Assembly (NCBI RefSeq): GCF_000381045.1 | Contig: NZ_KB905730.1 | Span: forward strand, 62,001 to 126,000 | Reading direction: 5' to 3' | Source: Thermus scotoductus DSM 8553 | Lineage (GTDB): Bacteria > Deinococcota > Deinococci > Deinococcales > Thermaceae | DNA length: 64,000 nt | Part shown: piece by piece, positions 25,129-61,218 of the stretch | How positions within the stretch are numbered: the stretch's first letter is position 1 | Layout: the number at the start of each line of letters is the position of its first letter | Made by a program: the position numbers and the translations under genes | Notes under the pieces: generated by a model | Databases searched by the model: none | What the model was told of the DNA's origin: nothing | What the model saw: only the letters and a program-made list of their open reading frames with translations

Positions 25129-25793
25129 AGGGAAAGGACGAGGCTTTGGCGGAGGAAGCCTGGGACCTCGAGGGTGAGTTCCAACCTGCCTGTCCCCCGT
25201 TCCAGGCCAGGTCGGAAGCCCACCACCTGAAGCCGGCCCTCGCCCCGGGCGGGCAGATCCACCTGTACCCGGAAGCTTTGGCCCAGGAGGACCAAGCTTC
25301 CTTCCACCTTGAGGGGAAGGGGGTTGGGGTTTTCCAGGAAGAAGTTCACCCCCACCCGGCGGACCCTTGGGGGCTCCAGGGGGAAGGCCAGCCGGGTGCG
25401 GAAGAAGGTGAGGCTTTGGCCCAGGGTGCGGCCTTCCAAGGCCACCGCCACCCCCTCCCGGGAGAGGAGGGCCTGGGCTGTGGCCAAGGCCTCCTTGGGG
25501 GTGAGCCGTACCAGGAGCACCTCCTCCTTCCTTCCGGGGGGTAGGGTTAGGTCCAGGGGCACGGCCACCTCCCCCACCCTGAGCCGGGTGCCAAAGGTGG
25601 CCAGGGGCAGGGGGAAGGGGTTGGGGTTTTGGAACTCCACCCTTACCCCCAGGAGGAGGGCGGGTTCCGGGCTCACTTCCAGGCCCCGCAGCTCGGCTCC
25701 CAGGAAGCGGGCCTCGGGGGTCAGGGTCTGGGGAGCGCAGGCGGCCAAAAGGCCCAGGGTCAAGAGGCCTAAAAGAATTCTCACAGGAGCCAT
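25125..25793 (-). CDS. Lipoprotein with two WHy/LEA14-like domains
   Basis: A 222-residue exported lipoprotein: signal RILLGLLTLGLLAAC with lipobox LAAC. Two successive WHy/LEA-14 type domains follow, each with the hallmark Asn-Pro-Asn-Pro: VEFQNPNPFPLPLATFGTRL near residue 55 and VNFFLENPNPLPLKVEGSLV near residue 150. WHy domains are linked to desiccation and stress tolerance in bacteria and plants; the activity is not known. ATG at 25793 has GGAGG close upstream; a GTG at 25785 overlapping the preceding stop as GTGA is an equally good start. Confidence 0.75.
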   Translation of the reverse strand: MAPVRILLGLLTLGLLAACAPQTLTPEARFLGAELRGLEVSPEPALLLGVRVEFQNPNPFPLPLATFGTRLRVGEVAVPLDLTLPPGRKEEVLLVRLTPKEALATAQALLSREGVAVALEGRTLGQSLTFFRTRLAFPLEPPRVRRVGVNFFLENPNPLPLKVEGSLVLLGQSFRVQVDLPARGEGRLQVVGFRPGLERGTGRLELTLEVPGFLRQSLVLSL

Positions 25794-26635
25794 CCTTCCT
25801 CCTTGAGGGCTTCCAAGACGGGCCGAAACTCCTTCCAGATAGGGCTTTCCTGGGGATAGGGAGGCCTTGGGTAACCGGCGGGTAGGCCCAGGTGCCTCAT
25901 GGCCTGCTTGAGGAGGGGTACCCCACCCCTGGAAAGAAGGTTCCCCAAGGGGAATAGCCGTTTTTGCAGGGCCTGGGCTTCGCTTAGGCGGCCGGTCCGG
26001 AAGGCCTCCAGGAGGGACCGGTAGGCCCTGGGGGCCAGGTTGGCCGCCGCCAGGATGCCTCCTTCGGCTCCCAGGGCCAAAGCCCCCAGGAAGGTGGGGG
26101 CGTGGCCGGTGAAGACCCGGAAGTCATCCCTCAGATGGGCCTGGTAAAAGGCCAGGCGGGTTAGGTCCCCGCTGGAGTCCTTGATTCCCGTGATCCTGGG
26201 GTGTTGGGCCAGGGTTTCCACCGCGGAAAGGGGCAGGTCCACCTTGGTGTTCTGGGGCACGTGGTAGAGGAAGATGGGCATCCTTTCCGCCAGGGCTTTG
26301 TAGTAGGCCACGAGCCCCTCGCCGAGGCTTGCGTGGTAGTAGCGGGGAGGCGTGGCCAGAAGGGCCATGGCGCCTGCTTCCTGGGCCTCGAGGAGGGCCC
26401 GTTCCGCCTGGGGCACGGTTTCCTCCATGAGGCCCACCAGGAAAGGCTTCCGGGGTTTTAGGGCCCGAAGCCCCCTGGCCCGTTCCTCCGGGGTCAGGTG
26501 GACGCCTTCCCCGTTGGAGCCGTAGATGAGAAGCCCGTCCACCAGAGGTTCCAGGGCTTCCGCCAGTTCCCGAAAGGCCTCTGTGTCCAGGCGGCCCTCC
26601 CGGTCAAATGGGGTGGGGATGGGGGGAAGGATCAT
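25781..26635 (-). CDS. DHDPS/NAL-superfamily aldolase, substrate unknown
   Basis: A 284-residue TIM-barrel class I aldolase. The Schiff-base lysine is in ITGIKDSSGD near residue 155, the catalytic Tyr in IFLYHVPQNTKVDL near 127 and the carboxylate-binding loop reads YGSNGEGVHL in place of the usual GTTGE. The family includes dihydrodipicolinate synthase, N-acetylneuraminate lyase and 2-keto-3-deoxy-sugar aldolases. Thermus makes lysine by the alpha-aminoadipate route, so a DapA role is unlikely; a keto-acid aldolase is more plausible. It is followed, with a 13-base overlap, by the WHy lipoprotein and preceded by a membrane protein. Confidence 0.85.
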   Translation of the reverse strand: MILPPIPTPFDREGRLDTEAFRELAEALEPLVDGLLIYGSNGEGVHLTPEERARGLRALKPRKPFLVGLMEETVPQAERALLEAQEAGAMALLATPPRYYHASLGEGLVAYYKALAERMPIFLYHVPQNTKVDLPLSAVETLAQHPRITGIKDSSGDLTRLAFYQAHLRDDFRVFTGHAPTFLGALALGAEGGILAAANLAPRAYRSLLEAFRTGRLSEAQALQKRLFPLGNLLSRGGVPLLKQAMRHLGLPAGYPRPPYPQESPIWKEFRPVLEALKEEGWLL

Positions 26636-28563
26636 GAATGCCTCCTTAGACCCAGTACCAGCAGAAGAAGGTGAAGCCCATAGGCCAGGATTAGGAAAGA
26701 GGGTCCCTGGCCCTTTAGGAGGGCTAAAAGCCCGTAGGCGGCAAAGAGGAGGAGCGCCAGGCCGAACCCACTGGAGAAGCCGAGGCTTCCGGGTACCAAG
26801 ACCCGCACCAGAAGGCCCCAGGCGGGGGGCACAGGCGTCCTCCTTCGCGGCAGCAGGAAGGTGAGGAGATGGTAGAGGAGAAGGAGCCAGAAGCCGGCGA
26901 AAACCCAGGGTCTTAGCCTTTCCGGGAGGGGGGTATCCAGCTGCATGAATCTCCGGAAGGGATCTTCCTGAAGGCGCACAAGCTCCACCTGGAGGAGGGT
27001 TAGGTAGAGGGTGCGCAGGGTGGGACCCGGCTCCCTGGCCCCCCAGGGATCCTGCCCCAGTTGGAGGGCTGTGCGGATGGGTCCCTCGAGGGGAGCCTGG
27101 CGGTAAGCCTGGGCCAAGGAGGCCTCATCCCCCCTGAGGGCCAGGGCGAAGGGTAAGGAGGCTTCCCGCAGGAGGCCTTGGGCCTCCTTGGGGGCCTCCG
27201 AAAGGAGGGCGTAGCCCAGAAGGGCCTTGACCTCGGGGGTGGGGGGCAGGGTACGGAGCCAGTCCTGGGCTTTTTGGGTACGGAGGGTGCCTTGGTCCAA
27301 GGGGGGGGCGAAAAGCTCTTTTCGCACCTGGGCGTCCAGTCCCTGAAGGAGGAAGCCCAGGCTGAGGGCTAGGAAGAGGGCCAGGGCCAACACCCGTTCC
27401 CCCAGGCTGGCGTAGGCCAGGTGAAGGTGCCGAAGGCGCAGGAGGGGGTGCCGCCAGAACCCGCCCAGGTAGCCACCGATGGGCCTCAGGTCCTTTAGCT
27501 GGGCGGGCAGGTAGTAGAGCAAGAGGTAGAGCATGAGGCCCAGGTAGGCCAGGCCCAGGGTCCAGAGGGCCATGGGAAGCAGGGAAAGCCTGGGGGGAAG
27601 CCAGGTGCGCAGGATCTTTCCCGCCTCGAAGAAGGTCAGAGCCTGGGCAGGGTGGCCTTGGGCCTCGAGGTATTGGGCAGTACCTTGGAAAAAAGCCAAG
27701 GAACCTGGGAAGAGAGGGGTGTAGCGGAGGAGGGCCTTGGCCAGGAGAAGGGCCTTTTCGGGGTCCTTCTCCTGCAGAAGGCGGGAGGCCTCCGCCATGC
27801 GGGCCACCCCCGGTTGGCCGAAGAAGAGTTCCGGCCTATGGCCCCGGGCCAGGAGGTCCTGGCCGTAGGCCTCGAGGTCCTCCGGGGTGAGGGTGGTGGG
27901 GTCCAGGGTCCAGTAGGCATAGTAGGGCCAGGGCTTTGGGGGGTTGAGAGCTTCCAGGAGGGAGCCCAGGACCTTTAGGTCCTCCTCCTTGCCTTCAAAG
28001 GGCACCCGGGGGAAGGGGATGGGCAGGACCCAGTCCCCCTCGAGGAGGGCTTCAGGGCCTGGCCTGAGGGCCAGGATGCGGGCCGGGGCAAAGTGGAAGG
28101 AGAAGGTTTTCTCCTTCGCGCTGGTTTCAACTACCAAAAGCCCCTGGGTCACGTACACCTTATCCCCTTGGACCAAAGGTCCCAGCCAACCCCCCGGGGG
28201 TAGGGGCAGGAGGCCCCAGGGGAGCTTGAGCCCTTCCCGGGTCAGCTCGGGGGTGGCGGGAGCCAGGGCGATGAAGCGGGCTTCCAGGGCACCGGCGGGC
28301 AGGGAAAGGCGGATGCGGTACTCCCCGGGGACCTTGGGGTGTAGCTCCAGCTGGAACCTTCCCTTCTGGGCCTCCACCTCCAAGGTTTCTTGTCCCTCGG
28401 GGCCCTCCAGCACCATGGGGAAGCGCCCCTCGGGCAGGTCCCGCCCCTCCAGGACCATGGACCTTCCCGCCTGGACTTCCTTCGGGACCACCAGGCTTTG
28501 GCCTAAAACCGGGAGTCCCAGGGCCAAGAGGAAGCCGATGGCCCGGGTCAGGAACGCGCGCAT
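26632..28563 (-). CDS. Large membrane protein of unknown function
   Basis: A 643-residue protein I do not recognise. A signal peptide (IGFLLALGLPVLGQ) is followed by an Ig-like beta domain (residues about 25-110, VPKEVQAGRSMVLEGRDLPE), a second beta-rich region, and TPR-like helices (residues about 250-330, LLQEKDPEKALLLAKALLRY). At least five membrane helices then follow, including LLPMALWTLGLAYLGLMLYL, LALALFLALSLGFLLQG, FAGFWLLLLYHLLTFLL and two at the C-terminus. The layout suggests an envelope protein that senses or assembles something outside. TAGAAT six bases before the ATG points to a leaderless message. Its end overlaps the aldolase start as ATGA. Confidence 0.75.
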   Translation of the reverse strand: MRAFLTRAIGFLLALGLPVLGQSLVVPKEVQAGRSMVLEGRDLPEGRFPMVLEGPEGQETLEVEAQKGRFQLELHPKVPGEYRIRLSLPAGALEARFIALAPATPELTREGLKLPWGLLPLPPGGWLGPLVQGDKVYVTQGLLVVETSAKEKTFSFHFAPARILALRPGPEALLEGDWVLPIPFPRVPFEGKEEDLKVLGSLLEALNPPKPWPYYAYWTLDPTTLTPEDLEAYGQDLLARGHRPELFFGQPGVARMAEASRLLQEKDPEKALLLAKALLRYTPLFPGSLAFFQGTAQYLEAQGHPAQALTFFEAGKILRTWLPPRLSLLPMALWTLGLAYLGLMLYLLLYYLPAQLKDLRPIGGYLGGFWRHPLLRLRHLHLAYASLGERVLALALFLALSLGFLLQGLDAQVRKELFAPPLDQGTLRTQKAQDWLRTLPPTPEVKALLGYALLSEAPKEAQGLLREASLPFALALRGDEASLAQAYRQAPLEGPIRTALQLGQDPWGAREPGPTLRTLYLTLLQVELVRLQEDPFRRFMQLDTPLPERLRPWVFAGFWLLLLYHLLTFLLPRRRTPVPPAWGLLVRVLVPGSLGFSSGFGLALLLFAAYGLLALLKGQGPSFLILAYGLHLLLLVLGLRRHS

Positions 28564-28580
28564 GGGGTTATTCTACAGGC
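28564..28580. promoter_or_regulatory. Shared -10 region of two divergent leaderless genes
   Basis: Only 17 bases separate two divergent ATGs. Plus strand: TATTCT (28569-28574), six bases, ATG at 28581. Minus strand: TAGAAT (28570-28575), six bases, ATG at 28563. The two -10 boxes occupy the same base pairs, so the two promoters must exclude each other. No good -35 is seen on either strand. Confidence 0.55.
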
Positions 28581-29243
28581 ATGGGTCTACTGGACATGAT
28601 CGGCCCGGTGATGGTGGGGCCTTCCTCCAGCCACACCGCCGGGGCTTGCCGCCTGGCCCTTCTGGCCCGGCACCTTTTGGGGGAAAGGCCTAGGCGGGTG
28701 GAGTTTGGCCTGCACGGCTCCTTTGCCAAGACGGGAAAGGGCCACGGCACCCACCTGGCCCTGGTGGCGGGGGTTTTGGGCTTTACCCCCGACGACGAAA
28801 GGCTTAAGGAAAGCCTTTCCCTGGCGGAGAAGGAAGGCCTCGAGGTGGCCTTCAAGGCAGTGGAGCTAGGGGATGTGCATCCCAACACCGTGCGCATGGT
28901 CCTGGAGGGGGAGAAGGAGCGCATCACCGTGACGGGAAGCTCCCTGGGAGGCGGGTTGGTGCGCATCTTTGACCTGGATGGCTTCGAGGTGCGCATCACC
29001 GGAGCCGCCCCCACCCTGGTGATCCGCAACGTGGACACCCCGGGGGTGGTGGCCCGGGTGGCCCGCATCCTGGCCGATGACGAGGTGAATATCGCCTACC
29101 TCACGGTGAGCCGCAAGAAGCGGGGCGGGGAGGCCATGATGAGCCTCGAGGTGGACCGTCCCCTTCCCGAGGTCCCCTTGAGGTACCTGGAGCACCTCTC
29201 CTACATCCTCTGGGTGCGGCAGATCCCCCCGGTTATGGACTAA
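28581..29243 (+). CDS. sdaAB: L-serine dehydratase, beta subunit
   Basis: A 220-residue beta subunit of the two-subunit, iron-sulphur L-serine dehydratase that converts serine to pyruvate and ammonia. The start MGLLDMIGPVMVGPSSSHTA carries the SSHTAG signature that binds substrate; a C-terminal ACT domain (LVIRNVDTPGVVARVARILA) is a likely regulatory amino-acid site. The alpha subunit, which carries the cluster cysteines, is not next to it and must be elsewhere. The ATG is preceded by a -10 box at leaderless spacing. Its stop overlaps that of the convergent histidine kinase. Confidence 0.93.
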   Translation: MGLLDMIGPVMVGPSSSHTAGACRLALLARHLLGERPRRVEFGLHGSFAKTGKGHGTHLALVAGVLGFTPDDERLKESLSLAEKEGLEVAFKAVELGDVHPNTVRMVLEGEKERITVTGSSLGGGLVRIFDLDGFEVRITGAAPTLVIRNVDTPGVVARVARILADDEVNIAYLTVSRKKRGGEAMMSLEVDRPLPEVPLRYLEHLSYILWVRQIPPVMD

Positions 29244-30223
29244 AGCTCCTTGGCCGAGGGGAGTTCCAGGCGCAAACACGCCCCGCCCAAGGGGGTTTTG
29301 CAGGTCAGAAGCCTCCCCCCGTGGGCCTCGGCCACCCGCTTGGCGGTGTAGAGGCCAAGCCCCGCGCTTCCCCGGTTCGGGCCTCCTTGGCGGAAGGGCT
29401 GGGCCAGGGCTTCCAGGGGCAGGGGAAGCCCTTCCCCGTCGTCCTCCACCTGCAAGGCCCCTTCCTCCACCCGGATGCGCACCTGGGTTTTGGCGTGCCG
29501 CAGGGCGTTGTCCAGAAGGTTGGCCAGGGCCCTTTCCAAAAGGAGCCGCTCCCCCCGGGCGAGACCCACCCCCTCCACCGTGAGGCCAAGCCCCCGCCTT
29601 CCCGCTTCCTCCCGGTAACGCAGAAGGAGATCCTCGGCCAAGGCCCTTAGGTTCAGGGTTTCCCGCTGGGGGGTGCGGGCCTCCAGGCGGGAGAGGGCCA
29701 GGAGGTTTTCCACGAGAAGGTGGGCCTGGAAGAGCTCCCCCCTCAAGGCCAGAAGGAGTTCCACCCGCTTCTCCCGTCCCAGGTGGTCCGCCCTTTCCAG
29801 GTACTCCAGGGCCCGGATGGCGGAAAGCAGGGGGGTTTTCAGGTCGTGGGCCAGGGCCCCGTAGAAGGCTTCCCGGGCCTCCATAAGGCGCTGGAGGCGT
29901 TGAAGAAGCTCCCCGAAGCGGGCGCGGAGCAGGGCGATCTCCATGGGGGGAGGCTCCTTGGGGGCGGGTAGCCTGAGCGCGTTCACCGGGCCCTCCTTGA
30001 CGGAGAGGTAGGCCAGGGCGCGGGTGAGCTCCTCGAGGGGCCTGAGGAGGCTTCGGGCCAGGAAGTACCCCACCGCCCCAGAAACCAGGGCGATGAGAAG
30101 AAGCCAAAGCACCAAGGGCAGCCAGGGACCCTCCCCCATGAGGCCCAGGGTGAGGGCCAGGACCAGGTTGGGCAGAAAAGCCAGAAGGGCGATAACCAGG
30201 GCGAGCCTTGCCCTAAGACTCAT
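29240..30223 (-). CDS. Orphan sensor histidine kinase
   Basis: A 327-residue membrane sensor kinase. Two membrane helices ([20 protein letters not shown] and [20 protein letters not shown]) are separated by only a few residues, so there is almost no external sensor. They are followed by a HAMP-like linker ([17 protein letters not shown]), the H-box [20 protein letters not shown], the N-box [16 protein letters not shown]1 VEDDGEGLP and G2 [19 protein letters not shown]. The ATG lies inside the end of lepA (11-base overlap). No response regulator is adjacent, so its partner is elsewhere. A signal within the membrane is the likely input. Confidence 0.9.
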
Positions 30224-59108: not shown

Positions 59109-60368
59109 TCATTCCTCCAAGGCTTCCACCACCACCGTGGGTCCCCTGACCTCCACCACCCTAAGGGTGGTGCCCTTGGGCAGGAAACCCCGGTTGGCCA
59201 CCACATCGATGCGCTTGTTGCCGAAGCGGGCCACCCCGCCAGGCCTCAGGTCGGTGAGGGCCACGCCGATGGCGCCCACCTCCACCTCGTCCCCGGTGGC
59301 GTGTTCGGAAATGGCACTTTCCAGCACCAAAGCCCTTGCCGGACGGGTCCTGGGTAGGAAGCGAAAGACCACGAGAAGGCCAAGGCCCAAAGCGATCACC
59401 GCAATAGCGATGACCATGAGGGCGTTCTCCCCGAAGGTGAAGTACACAGAGGCCAATATGGATCCCACGCCCAAGGCCCCAGCGATGCCAAACCCGGGGA
59501 AGAGGAAGGCCTCGGCCAGGAGGAGGGCCACCCCCAGGAAGAAGAGAACCAGCTCGAAGGCCCCGGAAAGCCCGGCGAGCCACCCCCCGGCAAAGTAAAG
59601 GGCTAAAAACGCCAGGCCCAAGGTTCCCATGACCCCAAAGCCCGGGGTGAAGAGCTCGAGGAGGAGAAGAAGAAGCCCAAGGGCCAGGAGAAGCCCCGCC
59701 ACGGTGGAGCTGGTGAGGAACCGGGCCACCTGCACCCTAGGGCCAGGCTCAAGCCTTTCCGTTTCCAGGCTGTACCCTGCCTGGCGCAGGGCCTCGGAGA
59801 GGCTTCCTGCCTTGAAGTCCGCCACCTTGAGCTCCACCGCCTTGTCGGCGGAGAGGGTGAGGGGCTCTCCTTTGGCGGAGAGGCCAGGGATCTCCACCTG
59901 GGGGTCCACCATGGCCTCCGCCAGCTCCACCGGCCTTCCCCGGGCCTCGGCCACCGCGCGGAACTTGCCCTTAAGGGCGGAGATGATCTTCTGGTCCGCC
60001 GCCTGGGGCTGCTGCAGGGGAAGAGCCACCACCGGCAGGGCTGCCCCGATCTCCGAGCCCGGCAGCATGGCCATCTGGCGGCAGGAAAGGGCGATCAGGG
60101 CCCCGGCGGAAAAGGCGTTCTGCACCACCGCCAGGGTGGGAAGGGGGGTTTGCAGGATCCGGTCGGAGATGCGGATGGCGGCGTCCACCCGGCCCCCCGG
60201 GGTATCTATGAGGAAGGCTACCCCGCTCGCCCCCTCCCGCTCAGCCCGGGTGAGGGCCTGGTCCACGAAGACGGCCAGGGCGGGGTCGATCTCCCCCTGG
60301 ATGGGAATGAGGTAGGTTTTCCCCAGGGCCAGGGAAAGAAGGAAGCATAGGGCAAGGAGCCTTTTCAC
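59109..60368 (-). CDS. nfeD: NfeD-family membrane serine protease (ClpP class)
   Basis: A 419-residue long-form NfeD. Signal peptide ([13 protein letters not shown]), a ClpP-like protease domain ([40 protein letters not shown], nucleophile Ser in [15 protein letters not shown] and a likely Lys partner in [14 protein letters not shown]), four to five membrane helices ([40 protein letters not shown]) and a C-terminal OB-fold ([20 protein letters not shown]). Relatives cut stomatin/flotillin partners, here FloA next door. GTG at 60368 follows AAGGACG; TAGAAT lies seven bases upstream of it. Confidence 0.92.
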
Positions 60369-60387
60369 CGTCCTTATTCTATACGGT

Positions 60388-60416
60388 TTGGGTGAGGGAG
60401 TGGGGTGGGGTATCCT
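60388..60416 (+). promoter_or_regulatory. Leaderless promoter of aroE
   Basis: TTGGGT (60388-60393), a 17-base spacer and TATCCT (60411-60416), with the ATG seven bases further on at 60424. The transcript should start at or next to the ATG; there is no Shine-Dalgarno. Confidence 0.65.
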
Positions 60417-60423
60417 GAAGCTC

Positions 60424-61218
60424 ATGTTGCGCCTGGCGGTGTTGGGCAGTCCCATCGCCCACTCCCTGTCCCCGGCCATGCACCGGTACGCCTTGAGCTC
60501 CCTGGGCCTCGAGGGAAGCTACGAGGCCTTGGAAACCCCCCTCGAGGTCCTGAAGGACCGCCTGGAGGAGGTGCGCCGGGAATACCGGGGCGTGAACCTC
60601 ACCATCCCCCTTAAGGAGGCGGCCTTGCCCCTTTTGGATTGGGTTTCCCCGGAAGCCCAGGCCATTGGTGCGGTGAACACGGTGCTTTCCGTGGAGGGCA
60701 GGCTTCTCGGCTTCAACACCGATGCCCCTGGGTTTTTGCAGGCCCTGAAGGCCGGGGGGATCCCCCTCATGGGCCCTGCCTTGATCCTGGGGGCCGGGGG
60801 GGCGGGGCGGGCGGTGGCCTGGGCCTTGAGGGAGGCGGGCCTTACGGTCTGGATCTGGAACCGCACCTGGGAAAGGGCCTTGGCCCTGGCGGAGGAGTTT
60901 GGGCTGAAGGCGGTTCCCTTGGAACGAGCCCAGGAGGCCAGACTCCTGGTGAACGCCACCAGCGTGGGGCTTAAGGACCCAGGGGCTACTCCCTTGCCGG
61001 CTGAGTTTTTCCCCAAGGAGGGGGCTGTGGTGGATCTGGTCTACCGTCCCCTCTGGACCCGGTTGTTAAGGGAGGCCAGGGAAAGGGGCCTTCAGGTGCA
61101 GACTGGGCTTCCCATGCTGGCCTGGCAGGGAGCCTTGGCCTTCCGCATCTGGACCGGCCTTCTCCCGGACCCCAGGGGCATGGAGGAGGCGGCCCGCCAG
61201 GCCTTGGAGGGGGAGTGA
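60424..61218 (+). CDS. aroE: Shikimate dehydrogenase
   Basis: A 264-residue NADPH enzyme that reduces 3-dehydroshikimate in aromatic amino acid synthesis. The substrate domain has MLRLAVLGSPIAHSLSPAMH and GVNLTIPLKEAALPLLDWVS with the catalytic Lys; the cofactor domain has LILGAGGAGRAVAWALREAG and the NADPH-preferring Arg in WNRTWERA; NATSVGLKD follows. The ATG follows a leaderless promoter. TGA is followed directly by the YigZ start. Confidence 0.95.
   Translation: MLRLAVLGSPIAHSLSPAMHRYALSSLGLEGSYEALETPLEVLKDRLEEVRREYRGVNLTIPLKEAALPLLDWVSPEAQAIGAVNTVLSVEGRLLGFNTDAPGFLQALKAGGIPLMGPALILGAGGAGRAVAWALREAGLTVWIWNRTWERALALAEEFGLKAVPLERAQEARLLVNATSVGLKDPGATPLPAEFFPKEGAVVDLVYRPLWTRLLREARERGLQVQTGLPMLAWQGALAFRIWTGLLPDPRGMEEAARQALEGE

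Follow-up and report, generated by a model that had tools for sequence, protein, structure and literature searches.

Bidirectional promoters have been described for Escherichia coli and other prokaryotes by Warman, Grainger and colleagues (PMC12825309). According to the available part of that paper, a -10 element is read on both strands by virtue of its symmetry, and the most common spacing between the two start sites is 18 bp (spacings of 10 and 23 bp also occur). The locus described here shows the same symmetric reading and the same number, though its 18 bp are counted between start codons (ATG to ATG). It differs from those promoters in that the predicted transcription starts coincide with the start codons, no -35 element is visible and the gap between the genes consists of the promoter alone.

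A second group of related systems is found in Deinococcus-Thermus, where leaderless genes are put at near 40% in five genomes (PMC3160421, as far as its available text goes). Reporter experiments in D. radiodurans, as given in the accessible portion of PMC12340547, identify the motif TANNNT at about 6-7 bp before the open reading frame as a -10 element for which no -35 is required. Both the spacing and motif positions 1, 2 and 6 matter, T1C is tolerated for sigma binding in vitro, and T. thermophilus RNA-seq is said to be consistent. Two such -10-only leaderless promoters were transcribed markedly less than a -35/-10 promoter. The genes in these two papers resemble ours in having the box six bases from the ATG, no Shine-Dalgarno sequence and no visible -35; PMC12340547 treats one gene per box, and its available text makes no mention of bidirectional, divergent, opposite or symmetric use. 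Adjacent divergent genes are also represented by prpD/Rv1129c of M. tuberculosis, where both genes are reported as leaderless (PMC3898074, in the part available); the likeness lies in divergence and leaderlessness, and the available passage makes no statement on a common -10.

A literature search over titles and abstract openings, mostly without subscription papers, yielded no -10 element common to two leaderless genes, which is weak evidence of absence. Among the matches listed for serine dehydratase or sdaAB in Thermus there was no paper on the gene pair studied here. The arrangement is real and well conserved. Its best reading is that of a leaderless promoter working in both directions, which combines two known kinds in a new way.

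Geometry of the element and its two genes

The window is a stretch of 64,000 nucleotides from Thermus scotoductus DSM 8553 (contig NZ_KB905730.1). Its features relevant here are as follows.

25781-26635, minus strand: DapA/NanA-like aldolase (PF00701), overlapping the end of the membrane-protein gene by four bases
26632-28563, minus strand: putative membrane protein of 643 amino acids, with homologues in 48 of 50 family genomes (its own genome included)
28564-28580: the entire intergenic gap of 17 bp (ATG-to-ATG distance 18)
28569-28575, both strands: heptamer TATTCTA, candidate two-way -10 element (from sequence and comparison)
28569-28574, plus strand: -10 box TATTCT of sdaAB, ending six bases before the ATG at 28581
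28570-28575, minus strand: -10 box TAGAAT of the membrane-protein gene, ending six bases short of the ATG that begins at 28563
28581-29243, plus strand: sdaAB, beta subunit of the iron-sulfur L-serine dehydratase (ammonia-lyase), 220 amino acids (TIGR00719 and PF03315 matches)

The sequence from 28561 to 28583 is CATGGGGTTATTCTACAGGCATG, and nothing besides the putative promoter lies between the two genes. The initial annotation placed each box six bases from its ATG, which is confirmed for TATTCT on the plus and TAGAAT on the minus strand. It further stated that the boxes cover the same base pairs; this holds for five of the six, since the two hexamers are offset by one base. The key -10 bases (T, A and the final T) are in place on both strands, with TAGAAT matching TATAAT at five of six positions and TATTCT, the weaker face, at four. 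The bases directly before the two ATGs, ACAGGC and AACCCC, are without a properly spaced Shine-Dalgarno sequence. No sigma70-type -35/-10 pair was found by a scan of 27900-29300 and no structured RNA by Rfam matching in 27500-29700; no regulator site was found at the locus either, nor anything that would activate one side.

Both open reading frames are genuine. The identity of sdaAB is clear from its score against TIGR00719 (217.9 bits, with a curated cut-off of 161.2). The position of its start codon is the same in 27 Thermus genomes and 20 more distant relatives examined, the codon being GTG in one of the Thermus genomes; sdaAA, which encodes the partner subunit, is located on another contig of the draft assembly. 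The facing gene is less easily placed. Its product gave no Pfam or NCBIfam match for the window member, while five of 19 relatives show weak Filamin-like Pfam matches. The structure model (mean pLDDT 89.6) comprises an N-terminal helix, Ig-like strands, helical repeats and long hydrophobic helices, and a PDB fold search with it returned low-TM matches only, none convincing. Sequence and model together point to a signal peptide, transmembrane helices and a membrane location. Nothing in the present data makes a functional tie to serine breakdown evident. The aldolase gene probably forms one operon with it.

To assess leaderless starts more broadly, we surveyed 464 kb (the window plus 20 stretches of genome G008) with a simple gene caller that yielded 447 genes. 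Among 1403 in-frame ATG/GTG candidates, TANNNT peaks at six (67) and seven (32) bases before the start, against 1-12 at each remaining distance within 0-17; counted by gene, 98 of the 447 have a box at six or seven bases compared with 14 at 13 or 14. Judged by this signal, sdaAB and the membrane-protein gene are probably both leaderless. The claim that two divergent leaderless genes share one -10 is borne out as regards the two faces, the conservation across the Thermus genomes examined and the lack of a -35/-10 pair in the scanned stretch, while its leaderless part is only probable. Within the same sample there are four divergent pairs whose start codons are 23-24 bp apart and whose boxes overlap by a TA (L120:16756-16780, L123:3490-3514, L124:5292-5316 and L124:18439-18462), and at 60368-60424 of the window a divergent pair carries a possible leaderless box on each side, without overlap.

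Given these data, we consider it quite probable that TATTCTA is a two-faced sigma-A -10 element which serves two leaderless genes at roughly independent outputs, with no switch. Most likely the sigma-A holoenzyme can bind the box either way round, and the side it takes determines at which ATG it initiates. Read on the plus strand as TATTCT, the element would give a leaderless sdaAB mRNA starting at A28581; read on the minus strand as TAGAAT, it would give a leaderless mRNA for the membrane protein starting at 28563, probably together with the downstream aldolase. A28570 and T28574 would be needed by both strands, T28569 and A28575 by one strand each. With no -35 or leader visible, the intergenic region would itself be the promoter, and output in both directions is expected to be low and constitutive. 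What is shown directly is the sequence and its comparison among genomes, whereas start sites, sigma-A use and occupancy by one polymerase at a time are what we infer; the last is plausible for TATTCTA, and steric constraints are reported, in the available part of PMC12825309, to prevent simultaneous binding at bidirectional promoters. Since its own face, TATTCT, matches less well, sdaAB could rely on a further feature that has escaped notice.

Conservation and recurrence of the geometry in Thermus

Conservation across Thermus had been named in advance as a check. In our set of 27 Thermus genomes the pair is adjacent in 26 and split in one (G014). The gap length and the heptamer are identical in all 26 adjacent pairs, and also in G049, which belongs to another genus of the same family. 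As the genomes are related, this 27/27 conservation may reflect one inherited event. Changes were counted by Fitch parsimony on a joint tree, used instead of a poorly resolved sdaAB-only tree, of 26 genomes (25 Thermus and G049; omitted are G014 with its split pair and G020 with a broken assembly). All seven heptamer columns show 0 changes, compared with 2-4 in each of eight other gap columns (28566-28568 and 28576-28580) and a mean of 2.82 at four-fold sites of sdaAB, of which 20 out of 101 are unchanged. The GG at 28564-28565, beside the start codon of the membrane-protein gene and outside both boxes, is likewise without change in the 26 genomes.

Coding bases of the membrane-protein gene at 28519-28557 vary freely (2-9 changes each), so that no conserved -35 is evident for sdaAB. 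Codons 5-7 of sdaAB (28593-28601), where a -35 of the membrane-protein gene would fall, show scarcely any change; this may be due to protein constraint, a conserved upstream element for the membrane-protein gene being possible too. One locus (L021, genome G016) has an sdaAB match for which a single in-frame TAG is reported.

The geometry is not restricted to this locus. Across the 27 Thermus genomes we counted 63 sites with the pattern CAT-N5-TANNNTA-N5-ATG and 0 with a reversed-pattern control, which exceeds chance within the genus: with the base composition of the window and genomes taken to average 2.26 Mb, about 5 sites are expected. Lengthening the spacers to N8 while keeping the letters gives 6 sites, close to this expectation. 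The 63 sites divide into 25 at the sdaAB/membrane-protein locus, 23 at one co-directional gene pair (11 of these 23 genomes were checked, the rest being assigned by sequence likeness) and 15 others, among which three are clear divergent gene pairs: trpC/patatin in G005, and both Sir2/NAD(P)H-hydrate enzyme and PIN/trpC in G016. For 84 non-Thermus genomes of the phylum the pattern is scarcely enriched (53 sites against 32 in the control), so that the excess is either a Thermus feature or diluted elsewhere. A 23-bp version, in which two boxes share a TA, is found at 47 sites in the 27 Thermus genomes (control 1), and 7 of 12 loci fetched have open frames of at least 100 codons in both directions.

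The co-directional pair (G000:C2:52479) was considered as a second genus-wide shared box and dropped, only its plus face being a leaderless start. There the box overlaps the stop of an upstream frame with 365-427 open codons (13 loci, 11 genomes). At G000:C2:52479-52501 (L062, outside the window) the pattern is kept in 23 of 27 Thermus genomes, and the last codons and stop (TACGC-TAA/TAG) seem to be used a second time, as leaderless -10 for the co-directional gene that follows. The 18-bp geometry is also present ahead of a gene for a MerR-type regulator carrying a B12-binding domain (L032, L056, L068, L072 and L073; Pfam basis for L032), the opposite strand having a short frame that starts with M[YS][RK][FL]CQ.

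Relatives in which the two faces come apart

Natural separations of the two genes provide a view of each face on its own. In 22 of 50 family genomes, covering three genera, sdaAB is absent: each has one weak match (best E-value 8.9e-16), mostly in frames of more than 500 codons and probably a phosphoglycerate dehydrogenase, and 20 of the 22 are listed without a match at 1e-30. The membrane-protein gene is present in 20 of these 22. For 18 of them the 5' end was read (G033 and G038, with partial matches, being left out), and all 18 carry TA[A/G/C]AAT six bases before the ATG, the box-bearing start (one per locus) lying among the leading candidate starts listed (at most nine per locus).

In a related family (f4) the membrane-protein gene stands divergent from sdaAB in all nine genomes read (out of ten that bear sdaAB), with a gap of 41-73 bp and two boxes. 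There, all nine sdaAB genes carry a TANNNT of their own at six bases. The membrane-protein box is NA[A/G]AAT; its first T is missing in eight of the nine (replaced by C in four of them), so that it is not a strict TANNNT. Among 11 more distant genomes, TANNNT is found exactly six bases before sdaAB in one, and the membrane-protein gene has no significant match in about 1.6 kb upstream of sdaAB.

Within Thermus the two genes are about 16.6 kb apart in G014. The membrane-protein gene there has TAGAAT at six bases from its ATG. For sdaAB, which in this genome follows a galactokinase-like gene, the box six bases before the start is TATGCT, the sole middle-base change among the 27 Thermus genomes.

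These separations allow the base required by the other strand only to be compared between shared and unshared boxes (G014 is left out of the counts). Following the membrane-protein box it is A in 27/27 shared against 5/27 unshared cases, and following the sdaAB box in 27/27 against 1/9. Fisher values for the two comparisons are 2e-10 and 3e-7; they take no account of relatedness and serve as description only. A counterpoint is given by G014, where both boxes retain the other-strand A, contrary to quick relaxation; the split may be recent.

Alternative readings and origin of the arrangement

It might be argued that the overlap is mere compaction without regulatory meaning, kept by drift and lock-in. 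We regard this as rather likely, and it is compatible with the two-faced promoter proposed above; the difference is whether the coupling is selected. Two divergent leaderless genes with a 17-bp gap must have overlapping boxes, and the related family keeps the same genes on separate ones. A comparison with trpC points in the same direction, its divergent start-to-start spacing depending on the species: 18 bp (2 loci), 21 (1), 23 (4), 27 (1) and 34 (3). These values come from 11 of 26 loci (L295-L320) with a close pair called by script; no pair was called in 12, which is not evidence of absence, and three have doubtful GTG starts only. The neighbours facing trpC are patatin-like or PIN-domain genes. 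That other pairs keep to discrete spacings of 18 and 23 bp was an earlier idea, rejected given the 21, 27 and 34 bp seen here, and Sir2 spacing was not used because the script missed known 18- and 23-bp sites (L289 and L266), apparently because it picked an overlapping frame of greater length. Against mere compaction, the sdaAB/membrane-protein spacing is unmoved in all 27 genomes, unlike that of trpC. This constancy fits either lock-in or selection.

A second reading, which we consider unlikely, is that only the membrane-protein gene uses the box, with a promoter for sdaAB farther upstream inside the membrane-protein gene and the plus face arising as a by-product of symmetry. In the bases that count, TANAAT is close to a palindrome, so that a plus face needs just one extra T; moreover, the face of sdaAB is the weaker match, and the membrane-protein box is retained in genomes without sdaAB. 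Nonetheless, T28569, useful to sdaAB alone, is fixed in all 27 shared boxes against 5/27 equivalent matches in unshared ones. The boxes that sdaAB owns in the related family and retains in G014, away from the membrane-protein gene, argue against this reading too, as do the missing Shine-Dalgarno sequence and the lack of any sigma70-like site found upstream.

The initial annotation had proposed a compact toggle, in which polymerase in one direction represses the other enough for the genes to alternate. Simultaneous open complexes do look impossible on boxes that overlap by five bases, and competition appeared in the published bidirectional promoters once one direction was strengthened or strongly activated (PMC12825309, available part). 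At basal activity, however, five E. coli promoters described there were too weak for competition, and lowering one direction barely altered the other. The negative scans for a -35/-10 pair, a regulator site and an RNA element at our locus offer no means of such activation. In addition, switching sdaAB alone would not cleanly switch the enzyme as sdaAA lies on another contig, and the related family shows that the pair exists without sharing a box. The divergent leaderless genes prpD and Rv1129c are reported to rise together in starvation rather than in opposition (PMC3898074, in its accessible part). We find no support for the toggle and judge it very unlikely. Finally, a palindromic operator or other protein-binding site in place of a promoter has hardly any probability: the outer bases of the heptamer are symmetric and conserved genus-wide, but its position relative to both ATGs is that of the leaderless promoter peak, the same kind of box stays six bases from the ATG outside the pair, the three to five gap bases on each side of the heptamer vary, and the flank on the side of the membrane-protein gene varies freely.

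Returning to the two-faced promoter, its origin can be sketched from the relatives. That sdaAB arrived beside an older membrane-gene promoter was considered and dropped, since the related family has the same divergent pair with separate boxes. The two-box pair would predate the split of the two families, sdaAB would have been lost in three genera, and an ancestor shared by Thermus and G049 would have seen the gap shrink to 17 bp, with the box of the membrane-protein gene becoming the sole one. We think that the arrangement arose in this way, by loss of the own box of sdaAB and shrinkage of a longer gap, and that it is kept because hardly any change of the gap would leave both genes working. 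More tentatively, and with some doubt on our side, divergent leaderless genes in Thermus might follow a path of promoter merging, from two boxes (34 or 27 bp) through TA-sharing (23 bp) to one box (18 bp). The last step would be near-irreversible, tying two unrelated genes to one seven-base element, and the sdaAB pair would be the oldest case, fixed before Thermus and the genus of G049 separated.

Overall, the locus unites bidirectional -10 elements with leaderless -10-only promoters, both described recently, in about the smallest possible control region for two genes. A change of the single base at 28569 is predicted to silence one gene, and a change at 28575 the other. The natural intermediates, with shared, touching, separate and split boxes, may show how bidirectional promoters arise and whether interference between polymerases is selected.
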